From Bacteroidota bacterium (GTDB lineage Bacteria > Bacteroidota > Bacteroidia > NS11-12g > UBA955), in NCBI GenBank assembly GCA_018333525.1, contig JAGXTF010000057.1, forward strand, positions 1-62,677: 62,677 nucleotides of DNA, in the 5' to 3' direction. Of the stretch, positions 52,782-58,845 are shown one piece after another. Every line of letters starts with the position of its first letter. The first letter of the stretch is position 1. The notes under the pieces were generated by a model, which saw nothing but the letters and a program-made list of their open reading frames with translations, was not told the origin of the DNA and ran no database searches. The position numbers and the translations under genes were made by a program.

Positions 52782-54005
52782 TTAATGAACAATGATTGGA
52801 TCCGAAGTTCCATCAGGATCATTGTTTACAGTTCCACTGGTATTGATAGTTCCATGGAGCAACACACCAGCAGCGTGCGGGGTAGCCATTGAAGTTCCGC
52901 TCATGGTGGTGTAGCCGTCATTTTTATAGGTGCTATAAATAGATACACCGGGAGCACAATAGTCAACAATAGATGCACTCCAGTTAGACCAGCTCGCATA
53001 ATTGTCATTCACATCCATTGCAGAAATGGTATATACATTGGTTGCATTGGTTCTGGCTGGAGAATGGTTATTGGCATCATCTCCTTCATTTCCGGCAGCA
53101 AGCGCAAATTTAATTCCATTGGCAGCTGCGGTTTTGATAGCATCATCCAAAGGAGTATAAATTGGTCCGCCGAGGCTCATGCTGGCAACATCGCCTGTAG
53201 TGGCATGTGCAGCAACAAAATCCACACCGGCAATAACGCCGCTGTAAGAACCACTGCCGGTATTACTCAAAACTTTTACAGGAACAACAGTTGCTCCGGC
53301 TGCAACACCAACAACTCCGATATCGTTGTTTTTAGCGCCAACAACTCCTGCGCAATGAGAGCCATGCCCATGTCCATCATTCAGGGATTTAGCATCAATT
53401 CCGGTTCTAAATGCATTGAATCCTTTTTTAGCATCTACATTCAGATCCGGGTGATTCAGGTCTATACCTGTATCCAGGATAAAACATACGTTGCTACCGG
53501 CATAAGTCGCCCAGTTAACACGCAGCATATTCCATTTAATCACCTGTGCAGGCTGCGTTGTTCCACTACCCGGTTTGCCACCGCTGATGTGAATCATAAT
53601 GTCCTGCTCCACATAGGCAACACGGGCATCCTTTTTAATTTTTTCCAACTGCTCATTCGTAAGACTTGCTGCAAAACCGTTGATGGTATTGCAATAAATC
53701 TCTTTAATCTCTGCAGCAGCACTAATGCCGTGTTGTTCGAACATCTGGTTGGTAACACCCTGAACGTAATCATGCAATGCAACCGGATTTTTGCCGATTT
53801 TTTGCTGTGGATTACCAATTTGTGCTTTATCATACACGATAATATATTGGCCGGGGATGTATTCCCAGGTCGTTTTTACAACATCATCGCTTGTCACGGA
53901 ATTCTCTACCATTTTCTTTTCTCTCTGGCACCCGGTAAAGAGGGCGGTTGCCATTAATCCTGCAACCAATATGCTGCCGGATAGTTGAATGAACTGTTTT
54001 TTCAT
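52782..54005 (-). CDS. Subtilisin-like (S8) serine peptidase, lipoprotein
   Basis: This 407-residue protease has a lipoprotein signal (lipobox LFTGC, C26), a propeptide of the inhibitor I9 type (PGQYIIVYDKA, NGFAASLTNEQLEKIKKD, about 50-140) and the S8 catalytic domain. The triad is D178 in ILDTGIDLNHPD, H214 in GHGHGSHCAG and S372 in GTSMATPHAAG, with the oxyanion-hole segment FALAAGNEGDD. It has no T9SS tail, so it probably stays membrane-anchored in the envelope. It lies 35 bases downstream of two response regulator genes on the same strand with no clear promoter between, so it may be co-transcribed with them. Confidence 0.93.
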   Translation of the reverse strand: MKKQFIQLSGSILVAGLMATALFTGCQREKKMVENSVTSDDVVKTTWEYIPGQYIIVYDKAQIGNPQQKIGKNPVALHDYVQGVTNQMFEQHGISAAAEIKEIYCNTINGFAASLTNEQLEKIKKDARVAYVEQDIMIHISGGKPGSGTTQPAQVIKWNMLRVNWATYAGSNVCFILDTGIDLNHPDLNVDAKKGFNAFRTGIDAKSLNDGHGHGSHCAGVVGAKNNDIGVVGVAAGATVVPVKVLSNTGSGSYSGVIAGVDFVAAHATTGDVASMSLGGPIYTPLDDAIKTAAANGIKFALAAGNEGDDANNHSPARTNATNVYTISAMDVNDNYASWSNWSASIVDYCAPGVSIYSTYKNDGYTTMSGTSMATPHAAGVLLHGTINTSGTVNNDPDGTSDPIIVH

Positions 54006-54040: not shown

Positions 54041-54505
54041 TTAGTTTCGTTTCTTCAGGCTTTCGGCTCTCATCATCTTCATCTCGTCCTGCGTTTTGAG
54101 CAACTCTTCTATCAGCCTTTCTCTTTCATTGCGCAGGGTGTATAGCTCGTAGGCCAAATTCACTGTTTGAATAATTTCATCGCGATCCCAGGGTTTCAAC
54201 ATGTATTTGAAAATCCTGCCACTGTTAAGTGCCTCACGCGCCACCTGGAAATCCTGATATGCAGTAAGGATCACTTTAAGTGACTTGGGGTATTTCGCGC
54301 TGATAGCCAGAAGAAATTCAGTTCCGGCTACACCAGGCATCTTCTGATCACTGATGATAACCTGATACTCTTTTTTGCTCAGGGCATCCAGTGCATGTGG
54401 CAGGCTGGTAGTGGCTGTAATATCGAATTCTCTTCTGAAACTCGCTTCAAACGCCTTTACGTTCGCTTCTTCATCATCAATATAAAGTACGCAAGGTTTA
54501 TCCAT
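54041..54505 (-). CDS. Stand-alone response regulator (receiver domain only), second of a pair
   Basis: This 154-residue receiver domain has the acidic pocket YIDDEE, phosphoacceptor D53 in IISDQKMPG, T81 and K104 in LKPWD. There is no DNA-binding or enzymatic output; instead about 40 residues of charged helix (LRNERERLIEELLKTQDEMK) follow, probably a coiled coil for partner binding. It is closely related to the next gene, 25 bases upstream. The KPWD type of receiver often works with hybrid or 7TM-type kinases, and one is encoded 2 kb away. Confidence 0.9.
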   Translation of the reverse strand: MDKPCVLYIDDEEANVKAFEASFRREFDITATTSLPHALDALSKKEYQVIISDQKMPGVAGTEFLLAISAKYPKSLKVILTAYQDFQVAREALNSGRIFKYMLKPWDRDEIIQTVNLAYELYTLRNERERLIEELLKTQDEMKMMRAESLKKRN

Positions 54506-54530
54506 GGATCTCCGGTGTTATTTTACAAAT

Positions 54531-54998
54531 TTAAGAAATTGTATTCTGTCTGGCCAAAAATTCCAACTGTTCTGCCAATATTTTCATATCCTCTAAATCC
54601 TGGCGCTTGGCTTTCTGAATCGCATATTCCTCAAATGCTTTCAAAATGATATCCTTGAGATTGTTGTTGTCCCATGGTTTTTGCACGTATTGGTATATCT
54701 TCCCTTTATTTACTGCATCCACCACTATGCCGATATCGGCATAACCGGTGATGAGAATTCGAATGCAATCCGGGTATTTGGATAAAATTTGTTCAAAGAA
54801 TTCCACCCCTGTAGTCCCTGGCATACGCTGGTCCGACAAAATGACGTGCATGTCTTCCTTCTCCAGTAATTCCATTGCCTCGGCAACACTCAAACAAATA
54901 AAAACATCAAAGTCCCTCCTAAAAGTAGCCTTAAATGCCTCCAGATTGTGGAGTTCGTCATCAACAAAAAGTACCTTAATCCTAGTGTTTTCCGTCAT
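54531..54998 (-). CDS. Stand-alone response regulator (receiver domain only), first of a pair
   Basis: This 155-residue paralogue of the downstream regulator has the pocket FVDDE, phosphoacceptor D56 in ILSDQRMPG, T84 in ITGYAD and K107 in VQKPWD, and ends in a helical tail (EYAIQKAKRQDLEDMKILAE). It also lacks an output domain, so it must act through protein contacts, perhaps as a phosphorelay or on the neighbouring enzymes. It is divergent from the ThiF-like operon, with 35 bases between start codons. Confidence 0.9.
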   Translation of the reverse strand: MTENTRIKVLFVDDELHNLEAFKATFRRDFDVFICLSVAEAMELLEKEDMHVILSDQRMPGTTGVEFFEQILSKYPDCIRILITGYADIGIVVDAVNKGKIYQYVQKPWDNNNLKDIILKAFEEYAIQKAKRQDLEDMKILAEQLEFLARQNTIS

Positions 54999-55013
54999 TT
55001 CGACGATAGTGTT

Positions 55014-55021
55014 TACCTTTG
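55014..55021 (+). promoter_or_regulatory. -7 element of the ThiF/GNAT/histidine kinase operon
   Basis: TACCTTTG fits TAnnTTTG and lies 12 bases before the ATG at 55034. It excludes the in-frame TTG at 55019. The -33 is not clear. The position between two divergent signalling units suggests shared control. Confidence 0.55.
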
Positions 55022-55033
55022 TACTGCAAAATA

Positions 55034-56134
55034 ATGCAAAATTCTCAGAATTCCGAAAAAGTTATTTTTCATCCCAGCATTTTCGATTTCAATATCCCGG
55101 GAAAAAAAGAGGAATTTGATTCCCTTCATGAAAGGTTTAACTTTCAAATATTGAACACTTTAGCCGCTCAAATGGAAGACCTTGCGGAAATTAATTTTCC
55201 GGAAGATGCAAAAAAAGGAGTACCTCCAAATGAATTGGTAAATCGACTTTTAAACGGAAAAAAAATAGAAGATTTTGGCAATCTCGTTTATTACCCCTGG
55301 AAAAATTCTGCCGCATGGATTTTAAAAGAGGATTATTTTTCTGAAACCAGAACCAATCGAAACAGAAATAAAATTACTGCCGATATCCAACAACAATTAT
55401 TTCAAAAACATGTACTTATTATCGGTTTGTCGGTAGGACAAAGTGCCGCACTCGCCTTCGCCATGCAGCGCATTTGTGGCCATTTGCATCTCGCCGATTT
55501 TGATTCCCTGTCACTGAGCAATATGAACCGTCTCAGAGCCAGTGTTTTGGATATTAACCTTCCAAAAACCGCTATTGCTGCCAGACAAATTGCCGAACAA
55601 GACCCATATCTGCAAGTGCATTGTTTTGCCGATGGCGCAACTGCAGAAAATCTGGATGCGCTGATTACCAGAAATGGCATGGGAAAAGTAGACCTGATTG
55701 TGGAAGAATGTGACAGCCTGGAAGTAAAATTAATGGTACGGCAAAAAGCAAAAGAATACGGAGTGCCCGTAATTATGGACACCAGCGATCGAGGATTGAT
55801 GGATATAGAAAGGTTTGATCTGGAAAAAAATCGCCCCCTGTTTCATGGACTCCTGGAAGGTGAAATATTGCCGGAGCCAGGTGAAAAACTCAACCCCGGC
55901 AGGCGTTTTGAGCTGCTTTCAAAAATTGTAAATATTTCCGGTGTTAGCCGCGGAATGCAAATTTCGTTGCCAGAAATTGGGAAATCCCTCCTCACCTGGC
56001 CGCAACTTTCTTATGAAGTTACTCTGGGTGGCGCTTTGACCACATATGTTGGGTATAAAATTCTGGCCGGCGAGCAAATGGATTCAGGCAGAATTTATGT
56101 TGATTTGGAGGAAATTTTTAAGAAAAAAGAGTGA
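55034..56134 (+). CDS. E1/ThiF-family adenylyltransferase of unknown substrate
   Basis: This 366-residue protein has an N-terminal domain of about 120 residues without recognisable motif, then a ThiF/MoeB/HesA Rossmann domain. HVLIIGLSVGQSAAL (residues 126-140) is the nucleotide loop, LADFDSLSLSNMNR (153-166) matches the D-x-D...SNxNR catalytic block, and K178 is also conserved. A characteristic segment VIMDTSDRGLMDIERFD (247-262) follows; similar proteins (the Rv1355c type) can carry a fused nitroreductase domain, absent here. No zinc-binding CxxC pairs are seen, and no ubiquitin-like partner gene is near. It starts an operon with a GNAT-like enzyme and a sensor kinase, with no bases between its stop and the next ATG. 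Confidence 0.85.
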   Translation: MQNSQNSEKVIFHPSIFDFNIPGKKEEFDSLHERFNFQILNTLAAQMEDLAEINFPEDAKKGVPPNELVNRLLNGKKIEDFGNLVYYPWKNSAAWILKEDYFSETRTNRNRNKITADIQQQLFQKHVLIIGLSVGQSAALAFAMQRICGHLHLADFDSLSLSNMNRLRASVLDINLPKTAIAARQIAEQDPYLQVHCFADGATAENLDALITRNGMGKVDLIVEECDSLEVKLMVRQKAKEYGVPVIMDTSDRGLMDIERFDLEKNRPLFHGLLEGEILPEPGEKLNPGRRFELLSKIVNISGVSRGMQISLPEIGKSLLTWPQLSYEVTLGGALTTYVGYKILAGEQMDSGRIYVDLEEIFKKKE

Positions 56135-56815
56135 ATGGACCTGAATATTAGAGCCTTTCGTGCGATGGATGATGTTAAAATCCGTGATGAATATCATGTG
56201 GGTTTGGAGCAGGTTCTACTTTATTACGGCGTTACAAGAGTTACTTCTCAAAGCCGCGACTGGTTTGACTCTCCGGATACATGGCTGGTTGTGGTACAAG
56301 ACAGAGAAGATGGTACCGTACTCGGTGGGGCCAGAATGCAAATGGCTTCCAACGATCTTCCATTGCCAATTGAAAGAGCCGTTGCATTTAAAGACACCCG
56401 AATTTATACGGAAGTAGACAAATACCGAGAAAACGGACTGGGAGAATTGTGTGGATTGTGGAACTCGAGAAAGGTTGCCGGTATGGGACTCGGAAGTATC
56501 TATCTCGGAATAACCTGTGTTTCCATTGCCGTAAAAATCAATATGAATACGGTGATGTGCCTTTGCGCTCCCAGCACCAAACAAAATTGTTTTCGGGTAG
56601 GTTTCAAACTCAATAAAGAACTTGGTGTGCAGGGTGAATTTGTATATCCCAAAGAAAATCTGGTGGCTACAGCCCTCATTATCAACGACCCTTTGGAAAT
56701 ACCAGAGGCGGAAGAATTTGAAAAATCCAGAATTTTGGCTTTGCGACAAAATGGCAAACTGGTAGCCGATGAAACTACTCCACGTGGAGATATCCGAATT
56801 TTTTACGACATATGA
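56135..56815 (+). CDS. GNAT-like acyltransferase of unknown substrate
   Basis: This 226-residue protein has an acyl-CoA N-acyltransferase look. VLGGARMQMASND forms the central strand, ELCGLWNSRKVAGMGLGSIY (104-123) matches the strand 4 to acyl-CoA-loop region with a modified G-x-G-x-G pyrophosphate loop, and NCFRVGFKLNKELG gives the late F..GF helix. The closest resemblance is to larger GNATs such as N-acyl amino acid synthases, but that is inference. Its ATG directly follows the ThiF stop, and its stop overlaps the kinase start in ATGA, so the three products are made together. Confidence 0.75.
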   Translation: MDLNIRAFRAMDDVKIRDEYHVGLEQVLLYYGVTRVTSQSRDWFDSPDTWLVVVQDREDGTVLGGARMQMASNDLPLPIERAVAFKDTRIYTEVDKYRENGLGELCGLWNSRKVAGMGLGSIYLGITCVSIAVKINMNTVMCLCAPSTKQNCFRVGFKLNKELGVQGEFVYPKENLVATALIINDPLEIPEAEEFEKSRILALRQNGKLVADETTPRGDIRIFYDI

Positions 56816-58845
56816 GAACCCTGAAAACTATTATTTTCTGCCTGTCCCTGTTTCTATTTTCCCTTTTCGCCGGGGCACAAACCATTAATTTCGAAGATTT
56901 TGAAAGCAGTGAAATGCTGGAGCCTACTGCTGCTTATTATAAATTTATTGCCGATAAAAATCCGGAAAATTCCGAATATAAAATCTCTCCCCTTCCCAGT
57001 TTTCAAAATCAGAATGGTACACATTTTATCAAATTTGAAATCAAGGAAAACTCATTTCACCGTGGGCCTGTTTGGATTAAATTGCCATTCCTGAGTTGTG
57101 AAAGTATTGAATTAAATTTTATTGATGCTGCTGAAAAAACAATTGCCAATATTCCGCTCACCAAAAAAAGCAGCAACTTTCTTTTTCGAATAGATAGTGT
57201 TCCGGAAAATTCCAAATTCATCCTGTTTAAAGTAAAAAGTTCATTCGCATTGTTTTTTCCAATGAAACTGATGCAAAATGACAAAATGGAATCCTCAGAA
57301 AAACGGGACGACATTGTGTACAGCATGTATTTCGGAATTGTAATTATCATGTCTTTGTACAACCTTTTTGTATACTTCTCTACGCGTTCTTCCAGTTACC
57401 TGTATTATTTCGCTTATTCGCTCACATTTGGTATTGCCCAGTTTTGTCTGGTTGGATTTTTTAATACTTTGGCAACACCCGGAAATTATATGCTTTCCAA
57501 GCAGTTTAGTATTGTATTCTCCGGATTGTCGGGCGTTTTTGGACTGTTTTTTATCAATTCCTTTTTGGAAATAAAACAGTTATTGCCAAAATTCAGAAAG
57601 TTATTTCTGCTGTTTTTATTTTCATACATCGGCGTAACACTGGCCGGCATGTTCCGCATTTTTGAACCCGTTTTTAACTGGCTCAATATGAATGGGGTTG
57701 GTGCCGGACTTTTTTGCCTGGTTGTTTCGGCATATTTGTCATTAAAAAAGAACAGACCTGCAAGATTTTATTTCGCCGCCTGGTCTACTTTTATTCTCTG
57801 TCTGGTTCTGTACATACTTACGAATGTGGGTGTTGCACCTTATAACGGTTTTACGAAATTCCTACTCCCACTTGGTTCCGCCATCGAAATTTCATTGCTC
57901 TCATTTGCACTTGCAGATAAAATCAATATTCTTTCGGAAGAAAATGAAATGCTGATTCGCGAACAAAATATCATGCTGGAAAGACAGGTTGCAGAGCGAA
58001 CTGCGGAATTGGGCGATGCACTGGAGAATTTGAAACAAACCCAAATGCAATTGGTAAATTCCGAAAAAATGGCCAGTCTGGGTCATTTAACGGCAGGTAT
58101 AGCGCACGAAATCAATAACCCGATAAACTTTATTTCTGCAAATGTATCGCCGCTTAGAAGGGATATTGAGGATTATGAAACCCTCATGGATTTGTATGGT
58201 GAATTAACTCCTGAAAACTTTGATGAACGCATTGCCAATATTCAGGCTAAAGAAAAAGAATTCGATCTGGAATACCTGAAAAAAGAAATACAAACCCTCC
58301 TCAGTGGTATTGATGAAGGTGCAAAGCGAACGGCAGAAATTGTAAAAAATCTGAAAATCTTTTCCCATATCGATAAAGCAGAACATTCCTTTTATTCTGT
58401 AAATGAAGGATTAAAATCAACCCTGCAATTGTTGAGTCATAAACTCAATGATATTTATGTTCGCGAAGATTTCAGTGACCTGCCTCCTATACTTTGTTTT
58501 CCGGGAAAACTGAACCAGGTATTTATGAATATTCTGAGCAATGCCATTGATGCACTGGCCGGCAGAAATAATCCGGAAATTGGCGTTACTACTTATTTAA
58601 AAGACAATTTGGTTTTTGTAGATATCAGCGACAACGGTTCGGGAATTCCTGAAAATATTATCAAAGATATTTTTAATCCATTCTTCACTACCAAAGATGT
58701 GGGATCTGGCACCGGTTTAGGATTATCCATAACCCTTGCCATTGTGGAAGAACACGGTGGCGAATTAAGGGTAAAAAGCGAACCGGATAAAGGCACTACA
58801 TTTACCATTATTCTGCCATTGAAGGATGATAAAAATGTAGATTAA
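56812..58845 (+). CDS. 7TMR-DISM sensor histidine kinase
   Basis: This 677-residue membrane kinase has a signal peptide (1-23), an extracellular 7TMR-DISMED2-type jelly-roll domain (about 25-165) and seven transmembrane helices (about 168-370). A coiled coil follows (LEENEM/ERQVAERTAEL, 375-415). Next come a HisKA dimerisation domain with phosphorylated H432 in AGIAHEINNPINF and the HATPase with NILSNAIDAL, DNGSGIPE and GTGLGLSITLA. It has no receiver, so it should signal to separate regulators; two such receivers are encoded divergently 1.8 kb upstream. The DISMED2 domain suggests that it senses a carbohydrate-like or other small ligand. Confidence 0.93.
   Translation: MRTLKTIIFCLSLFLFSLFAGAQTINFEDFESSEMLEPTAAYYKFIADKNPENSEYKISPLPSFQNQNGTHFIKFEIKENSFHRGPVWIKLPFLSCESIELNFIDAAEKTIANIPLTKKSSNFLFRIDSVPENSKFILFKVKSSFALFFPMKLMQNDKMESSEKRDDIVYSMYFGIVIIMSLYNLFVYFSTRSSSYLYYFAYSLTFGIAQFCLVGFFNTLATPGNYMLSKQFSIVFSGLSGVFGLFFINSFLEIKQLLPKFRKLFLLFLFSYIGVTLAGMFRIFEPVFNWLNMNGVGAGLFCLVVSAYLSLKKNRPARFYFAAWSTFILCLVLYILTNVGVAPYNGFTKFLLPLGSAIEISLLSFALADKINILSEENEMLIREQNIMLERQVAERTAELGDALENLKQTQMQLVNSEKMASLGHLTAGIAHEINNPINFISANVSPLRRDIEDYETLMDLYGELTPENFDERIANIQAKEKEFDLEYLKKEIQTLLSGIDEGAKRTAEIVKNLKIFSHIDKAEHSFYSVNEGLKSTLQLLSHKLNDIYVREDFSDLPPILCFPGKLNQVFMNILSNAIDALAGRNNPEIGVTTYLKDNLVFVDISDNGSGIPENIIKDIFNPFFTTKDVGSGTGLGLSITLAIVEEHGGELRVKSEPDKGTTFTIILPLKDDKNVD

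Follow-up and report, generated by a model that had tools for sequence, protein, structure and literature searches.

Why should a ThiF-type adenylating enzyme, an acyltransferase and a receptor histidine kinase be encoded in one tight row? The question is raised by positions 54,041 to 58,845 of contig JAGXTF010000057.1 (assembly GCA_018333525.1; Bacteroidota bacterium, GTDB lineage Bacteroidia; NS11-12g; UBA955), whose whole length of 62,677 nucleotides was analysed and is here called the window. We consider it fairly probable that these genes form an autoinducer-like two-component system, in which a GNAT-fold protein acylates an amino acid, the ThiF protein or a substitute tailors the product, and a seven-transmembrane (7TM) kinase senses that product. 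The enzymes are of a known pathway type; what is new is that they are linked to a receptor kinase of their own, and that tailoring enzyme and sensor are interchangeable. The sequence and model basis consists of gene order, conservation, domain identities, the GNAT fold, intact motifs and the co-segregation of the 7TM part with the tailoring type.

A conserved gene set and its reduced copy in the window

The locus comprises the following features.

54041..54505, minus strand: RR2, receiver-only protein (154 aa), Pfam Response_reg, phospho-site residues intact
54531..54998, minus strand: RR1, conserved receiver-only protein of 155 aa, divergent, C-terminal tail of the RQxxIS type, Response_reg
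55014..55021, plus strand: TACCTTTG, candidate promoter element, a TAnnTTTG match 12 bases before the ThiF start
55034..56134, plus strand: predicted ThiF-type N-acyl-amino-acid cyclase (366 aa) of the Rv1355c/TrzS family (NF005901), without the flavin-dependent desaturase half
56135..56815, plus strand: GNAT N-acyltransferase (226 aa), predicted N-acyl amino acid synthase from a structure model
56812..58845, plus strand: 7TMR-DISM sensor histidine kinase (677 aa, Pfam), with the 7TM sensor at about 57307-57927 and the kinase half at about 58033-58842

The ThiF gene ends at 56134 and the GNAT gene begins with its ATG at 56135, leaving no gap, while the GNAT stop and the kinase start overlap in an ATGA at 56812-56815. 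On the other side, 35 bases separate the ThiF start (55034) from the start of the divergent RR1 gene (54998). These five genes, junctions and spacing had been described in an initial annotation of this DNA, and all were found where it had placed them.

That annotation proposed a neighbourhood search as a check, and the GNAT and DISM kinase genes indeed turned out to be neighbours in other genomes. Of 396 Bacteroidia genomes, drawn evenly and representing 199 genera, 85 genomes in 48 genera carry the GNAT gene. Its surroundings are nearly always the same, with the DISM kinase, a divergent receiver and usually a receiver-kinase, and the only matches without a kinase were a remote homologue (L149) and a locus at a contig end (L131). 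A wider set was assembled from the loci of this class sample, 80 named loci (the best hits of a scan of named genomes) and 25 more, whereas matching loci number roughly 450 in all. Among its 168 distinct loci that are uncut by a contig end, the DISM kinase adjoins the GNAT gene in 167, a proportion that, like all others over these 168, is not an unbiased census because the added loci were chosen by similarity or family. The named loci include Pedobacter, Chitinophaga, Mucilaginibacter and Flavipsychrobacter, and the best 80 matches of the scan all come from Bacteroidota except for one record labelled Azovibrio (L179). The GNAT sequence of this record is identical to that of a Bacteroidetes record (L181), and it is probably mis-binned. 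The arrangement is not a product of chance; it is a conserved gene set.

In relatives of the same order, the operon reads RR1 (divergent), then ThiF-desaturase (about 770 aa), GNAT, DISM kinase, a receiver-kinase (about 365 aa) and a small receiver (about 130 aa), with junctions mostly within 30 bases. The window copy is a reduced version, without the desaturase domain, the receiver-kinase and the small receiver and with a second receiver, RR2. No orthologue of the missing receiver-kinase was found elsewhere in the window's genome beyond generic kinases. Across families, no extra conserved output gene stands beside the operon, the neighbours being family-specific only. No conserved exporter belongs to it, and genes for a carrier, JAB or E2 protein are absent from the conserved neighbourhood, where the acyltransferase is always present. 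Among open-licence papers, no description was found of this coupling of enzymes to a kinase, nor of any such synthase-receptor pair in Bacteroidota.

The signalling proteins retain the motifs that their activity requires. In the window the kinase carries 7TMR-DISM_7TM (Pfam E 1e-40), HATPase_c (E 2e-26) and HisKA domains with intact H, N and G boxes, and the window receivers retain the acidic pair, phospho-Asp, Thr and Lys of the phosphorylation site. The extracellular part of the kinase is its most variable segment (mean identity 0.23). An RR1-type divergent receiver was extracted in 154 of the 178 loci used for trees, and in 140 of these 154 it ends in an RQx-hydrophobic-hydrophobic-S peptide (LARQNTIS in the window, within 54531-54600), possibly a docking tail. 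RR1 is therefore probably not output-less, as this conserved tail is likely a docking peptide. The initial annotation had taken both receivers to be output-less, and RR1 and RR2 do consist of a receiver only; most relatives, however, add the receiver-kinase and often another receiver, and the RR1 tail is conserved. RR2 itself is absent from most relatives. It may be a copy of RR1 or a remnant of the receiver-kinase, two origins that the receiver tree does not separate.

Predicted chemistry of the acyltransferase and the cyclase

Sequence comparison placed the GNAT protein in no known group. Against Pfam and NCBIfam at E values up to 1 it hit no family apart from a chance match, and its sequence profile gave no significant match in the PDB. 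Its designation as a GNAT-like acyltransferase was nevertheless supported by a structure model built from 46 sequences (pLDDT 92.1, pTM 0.88), which has the GNAT fold. The closest PDB structure is FeeM (2g0b; Foldseek E 3e-8), which VIA also ranks first (Z 16.8, 176 residues, 2.9 A) with a lead over other GNATs of less than one Z unit. After FeeM come the N-acyl-homoserine lactone (AHL) synthases LasI, TofI, EsaI, BjaI and RpaI. These closest structures are users of acyl-CoA or acyl-ACP, and the model is thus in keeping with the acyl-CoA pocket that the initial annotation had required of a predicted structure. Thus, the protein shares with FeeM/NasY-type N-acyl amino acid synthases the predicted fold with its acyl-binding GNAT core, whereas its sequence is only about 12% identical to FeeM and matches no FeeM-type or LuxI sequence family, the likeness to LuxI being one of fold only. 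Based on the model, it is predicted to be an N-acyl amino acid synthase. One other operon (L072:7535-8976) contains a tandem pair of GNAT genes.

The window ThiF protein, which contains a ThiF domain (Pfam E 7e-20), matches the NCBIfam Rv1355c model NF005901 with residues 4-341 of its 722, that is in the first half only, at an E value of 2e-112; the runner-up family reaches 2e-15, and there are weak matches to ThiF, MoeB and TcdA. Its score of 376.6 bits lies below the whole-protein cut-off of 476 bits, with the desaturase half absent, while the ThiF-desaturase of a relative (L034) scores 726 bits and passes it. Over the N-terminal half of the fusions of about 770 aa, the window protein is 42% identical. 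It retains the motifs GLSVGQ (131), SNMNR (162), PK (177) and EECD (224), and in an alignment the Asp of EECD falls on the conserved Asp of Escherichia coli ThiF. In terms of the subfamily, it has the ThiF-type adenylating domain with conserved ATP-site residues and directly adjoins an N-acyltransferase gene, here the GNAT with its FeeM-like fold, and it lacks the C-terminal flavin-dependent oxidase domain of the nitroreductase superfamily. By sequence it is predicted to be an N-acyl-amino-acid cyclase of the Rv1355c/TrzS type.

Rv1355c is TrzS, which together with the acyltransferase TrzA converts tryptophan to an N-acyl tryptazolone (PMC12856293), and TyzACB and OxzAB make N-acyl tyrazolones by the same route (PMC10404671, PMC12856293). 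In these pathways the N-acyl amino acid formed by the acyltransferase is cyclised by the ThiF domain at the cost of ATP, and desaturation is the task of a flavin-dependent oxidase (PMC10404671, PMC12856293); in TrzS cyclisation comes first, and an impaired oxidase leads to release of the saturated ring (PMC12856293). Oxazolones are prone to hydrolysis in acid and to reaction with alcohols (PMC12856293). OxzAB of Pseudoalteromonas rubra, TyzACB and TrzAS (Rv1356c-Rv1355c) of Mycobacterium and Rhodococcus share with the loci studied here an N-acyltransferase beside a ThiF-type cyclase of the same NCBIfam family, and most relatives have the ThiF-desaturase fusion as in OxzB and TrzS. In contrast to OxzB and TrzS, the window protein lacks the desaturase, as do the ThiF proteins of about 50 of the 168 uncut loci. 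In contrast to all three published pathways, the operon here includes a 7TM receptor kinase with receivers, and ThiF can be replaced by other enzymes. The papers on these oxazolone pathways report no such kinase, and trzAS adjoins genes for cyclic di-GMP (PMC10404671, PMC12856293).

In the proposed chemistry, the GNAT would acylate an amino acid, probably an aromatic one, taking the acyl group from a thioester carrier, and the ThiF protein would adenylate the carboxylate of the resulting N-acyl amino acid at the expense of ATP so that it closes to a 5-oxazolone. The fused flavin-dependent oxidase would then desaturate the oxazolone in most relatives. The window GNAT and ThiF are likewise predicted from sequence to make an N-acyl oxazolone, and, in the absence of the desaturase domain, this oxazolone would be expected to stay saturated or to end as its hydrolysis product. 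A search of the rest of the window's genome for a desaturase of the fused type yielded two nitroreductases, neither of which fits the fused-desaturase profile. One of them lies in an exopolysaccharide cluster (L151) with a G+C of 0.458, compared to 0.403 in the window, and its contig (G000:C18) may be an assembly contamination.

Could the ThiF protein instead work as E1-like enzymes do in ubiquitin-like, thiamin or molybdopterin pathways, by activating a partner protein or a carrier? The general ThiF fold and the weak ThiF, MoeB and TcdA matches would fit such conjugation, which we nevertheless regard as very improbable: the Rv1355c/TrzS family is far ahead (E 2e-112 compared to 2e-15), and the conserved neighbourhood holds the acyltransferase rather than a carrier, JAB or E2 gene. 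A ubiquitin-like or CD-NTase (CBASS-like) reading was rejected likewise, as Rv1355c is the best family and no such partner gene is conserved. The initial annotation had concluded that known E1-based systems do not explain the locus, which can no longer be upheld, as the ThiF protein belongs with the published TyzB, OxzB and TrzS (PMC10404671, PMC12856293). Its idea of a small amidated or acylated molecule was right in kind, cyclisation of an N-acyl amino acid being predicted; its alternative of an attached molecule or surface modification is not favoured, as the grouping of ThiF with these oxazolone cyclases points to intramolecular cyclisation and not to attachment to a surface or another protein.

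Two further observations concern ThiF-desaturase genes. A TAA interrupts the reading frame of one of them (L037:8579-10831). Two genomes (L040 in G037, L041 in G054) contain another Rv1355c-type ThiF-desaturase gene, without GNAT or kinase and next to an ABC exporter and a GCS2-like ligase with CBS domains (two open reading frames in L040), perhaps a second kind of oxazolone-like pathway.

Tailoring type and the sensor half

The ThiF position is not always occupied by ThiF. The 168 uncut loci comprise 96 with ThiF and desaturase, 50 with ThiF alone, 8 with a class I methyltransferase, 5 with a 540-aa flavoenzyme, 4 with a membrane enzyme resembling isoprenylcysteine carboxyl methyltransferase (ICMT; PF04140) and 5 with no tailoring gene. 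In these other operons the product would be tailored by the class I methyltransferase, by the ICMT-type carboxyl methyltransferase or by the flavoenzyme, which resembles p-cresol methylhydroxylase and counts 4-cresol dehydrogenases and vanillyl-alcohol oxidases among its nearest relatives of solved structure. The methyltransferase and ICMT types would give methyl esters. The carboxylate of the N-acyl amino acid would be masked by ThiF as well as by a carboxyl methyltransferase, much as it is by the lactone of an AHL. Relatives of p-cresol hydroxylase act on 4-hydroxybenzyl groups, so that an N-acyl tyrosine would suit the flavoenzyme as a substrate.

A kinase that senses the product should change its sensor along with the tailoring enzyme. 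Trees were built for each operon part from 178 loci (about 155 for RR1 and the receiver-kinase), and changes of tailoring type along them numbered only 4 for the 7TM part and 5 for the extracellular part, compared to 14 for GNAT, 16 for the kinase half, 12 for RR1 and 11 for the receiver-kinase. For the methyltransferase type by itself, the 7TM tree requires a single change and the GNAT and kinase trees require eight. For the 20 loci of minority types, the nearest neighbour shared the tailoring type in all 20 cases with the 7TM part, compared to 13 of 20 with the extracellular part, 8 of 20 for GNAT, 7 of 20 for the kinase half, 7 of 17 for RR1 and 6 of 14 for the receiver-kinase. In a 54-sequence set, the methyltransferase, flavoenzyme and ICMT types each form one group on the 7TM tree. 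In approximately unbiased (AU) tests on 54 sequences, monophyly of the methyltransferase type was rejected with p 2e-69 for GNAT and p 1e-58 for the kinase, and monophyly of the flavoenzyme type with p 2e-42 and p 0.001, respectively; a mixture-model run agreed for the kinase. A single ICMT clade was not rejected for either protein.

Operons of the ThiF-GNAT-kinase order served as an independent check, as the GNAT gene here separates ThiF from the kinase gene. In these operons, too, divergence of the 7TM part tracks that of GNAT, with a partial r of 0.49, and that of ThiF (0.25), but not that of RR1 (-0.05) or the receiver-kinase (-0.16), all of these 7TM associations being correlations along a shared phylogeny and not proof of binding. 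In an earlier locus set, the partial correlation of GNAT with the 7TM part given the extracellular part was 0.37 and the reverse 0.04, which suggests that the 7TM part rather than the extracellular part follows the chemistry. As the 7TM part sorts by type while GNAT, kinase half and receivers do not, operons have gained a new tailoring gene together with a sensor half and kept their own kinase half, synthase and receivers. Such co-segregation is the trace that matching of receptor and ligand would leave.

Signal, membrane lipid or status readout

In the proposed system, the neighbouring DISM kinase would recognise the product through its 7TM half and would pass phosphate to RR1 and RR2 and in relatives also to the receiver-kinase and the small receiver. 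Two marks of autoinducer systems are present, namely the gene linkage of a synthase with a membrane histidine kinase and a sensor that varies with the signal-making enzyme. The initial annotation, which was partly supported overall, had suggested a self-produced signal sensed by its own kinase. With the conserved set of acylation, E1-like activation and receptor kinase, this is now the best-supported reading, while the unexplained E1 and the subtilase that accompanied it have been dropped.

The main rival is a biosynthetic operon for a lipid or surfactant under its own two-component control, in which the product would be a membrane component, antibiotic or surfactant and the kinase would sense an outside cue such as a carbohydrate, envelope stress or a competitor. 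Stieleriacines and related N-acyl tyrosines are described as antimicrobial and as shaping communities (PMC12479983, PMC7293339), and one Bacteroidota strain, an Olivibacter, produces related N-acyl tyrosine and phenylalanine lipids with branched medium chains, as D/L mixtures (PMC8433624). Racemisation of this kind would be the consequence of a saturated oxazolone intermediate. In addition, binding of external ligands would be expected of the extracellular domain of a DISM kinase, and this domain is the most variable part of the protein. A kinase for an unrelated cue should, however, keep its sensor when the tailoring chemistry changes; here the 7TM half tracks the biosynthetic enzymes more closely than the extracellular domain does (20/20 and 13/20 same-type neighbours, and the two partial correlations of the earlier set), and the operon is without a DNA-binding regulator to control production. 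This explanation appears unlikely to us. Alternatively, the product could report on the status of the same cell, i.e. its supply of acyl-CoA, aromatic amino acids, ATP or oxygen, and serve feedback or metabolic sensing rather than communication between cells. In its favour, desaturation depends on O2 and ring closure on ATP, the operon has no conserved exporter, and oxazolones were more abundant inside cells, with acyl-tryptophan precursors in the supernatant (PMC12856293). Neutral acyl molecules can nevertheless diffuse, as AHLs do, and such a readout, which has no direct evidence and is inseparable from signalling by sequence, seems to us still less probable than a lipid operon.

Several points weigh against the autoinducer interpretation itself. 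The substrates, the product, its identity with the ligand, the direction of phosphotransfer, the action between cells and the roles of the receivers are all matters that we infer, and published oxazolones are found mainly inside cells (PMC12856293). The window copy is without the desaturase domain and the downstream receiver-kinase. Part of the co-segregation may reflect physical linkage, since the methyltransferase, ICMT and flavoenzyme genes sit between GNAT and kinase, directly preceding the latter, and a swap of one contiguous segment could explain it to that extent. The methyltransferase clade on the 7TM tree is weakly supported when a long branch (L127) is included, with a support of 95 for eight of its nine members. 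The difference between ThiF and ThiF with desaturase, considered as a trait by which sensors sort, is mirrored weakly in the 7TM tree (17 changes compared to 20 each for GNAT and kinase). Finally, a tailoring gene is absent in five loci (L236, L238, L239, L242 and L112). The sensors of the first four are nearest to the ICMT type, which would predict the same ICMT elsewhere in their genomes; this was not confirmed, as only homologues of 26-35% identity were found there, shared by genomes of the ThiF type.

Lqs/Cqs (alpha-hydroxyketones), Rpf/DSF and Vibrio LuxM/LuxN are autoinducer systems that combine a synthase with a kinase. As in these systems, a small-molecule synthase gene stands beside a membrane histidine kinase and receivers; unlike in them, the synthase chemistry is another one, the sensor is a 7TMR-DISM protein, the tailoring is variable and the phylum is Bacteroidota. 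With LuxI-type AHL synthases the GNAT shares the overall fold, and the predicted product would likewise be a cyclised acyl amino acid with a masked carboxyl group. Unlike LuxI, the GNAT has no Pfam match, ring closure would fall to a separate ThiF protein that uses ATP, and the receptor is a kinase and not LuxR.

A broader claim, whose chances we see as evenly balanced, is that of a widespread Bacteroidota autoinducer family built on an N-acyl amino acid scaffold, with kinases that recombine in a matching 7TM sensor and keep their kinase half and phosphorelay. It would have at least four alternative tailorings, predicted from sequence as an oxazolone ring, desaturated or left saturated, methylation by either of two unrelated enzymes, and oxidation by a flavoenzyme. 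If so, signalling 'dialects' could be read from the genome, and Bacteroidota would possess a counterpart of quorum-sensing signals that gives oxazolone lipids a testable role. That role has been called a major unresolved question, with cell-cell signalling named as a possibility only (PMC12856293, 2025). The operon ties enzymes of the oxazolone type to a dedicated receptor kinase in about one-fifth of the sampled Bacteroidia genomes and makes the role directly testable by deletion, cross-feeding and sensor swap. The co-segregation of sensor and tailoring predicts ligand classes for 7TMR-DISM, a receptor family with largely unknown ligands.

Two neighbouring features of the window complete the description. 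A subtilase with an I9 propeptide (52782-54005) lies on the same strand as RR2 and 35 bases beyond it. It had been considered a possible member of the system and was rejected as a partner, as no homologue was found in other neighbourhoods of the GNAT operon. Upstream of the ThiF gene, the match at 55014..55021 to TAnnTTTG, which we take to be the Bacteroidota promoter element consensus, is suggestive only of a promoter element of the ThiF operon, the window containing 67 such sites compared to about 75 expected by chance.

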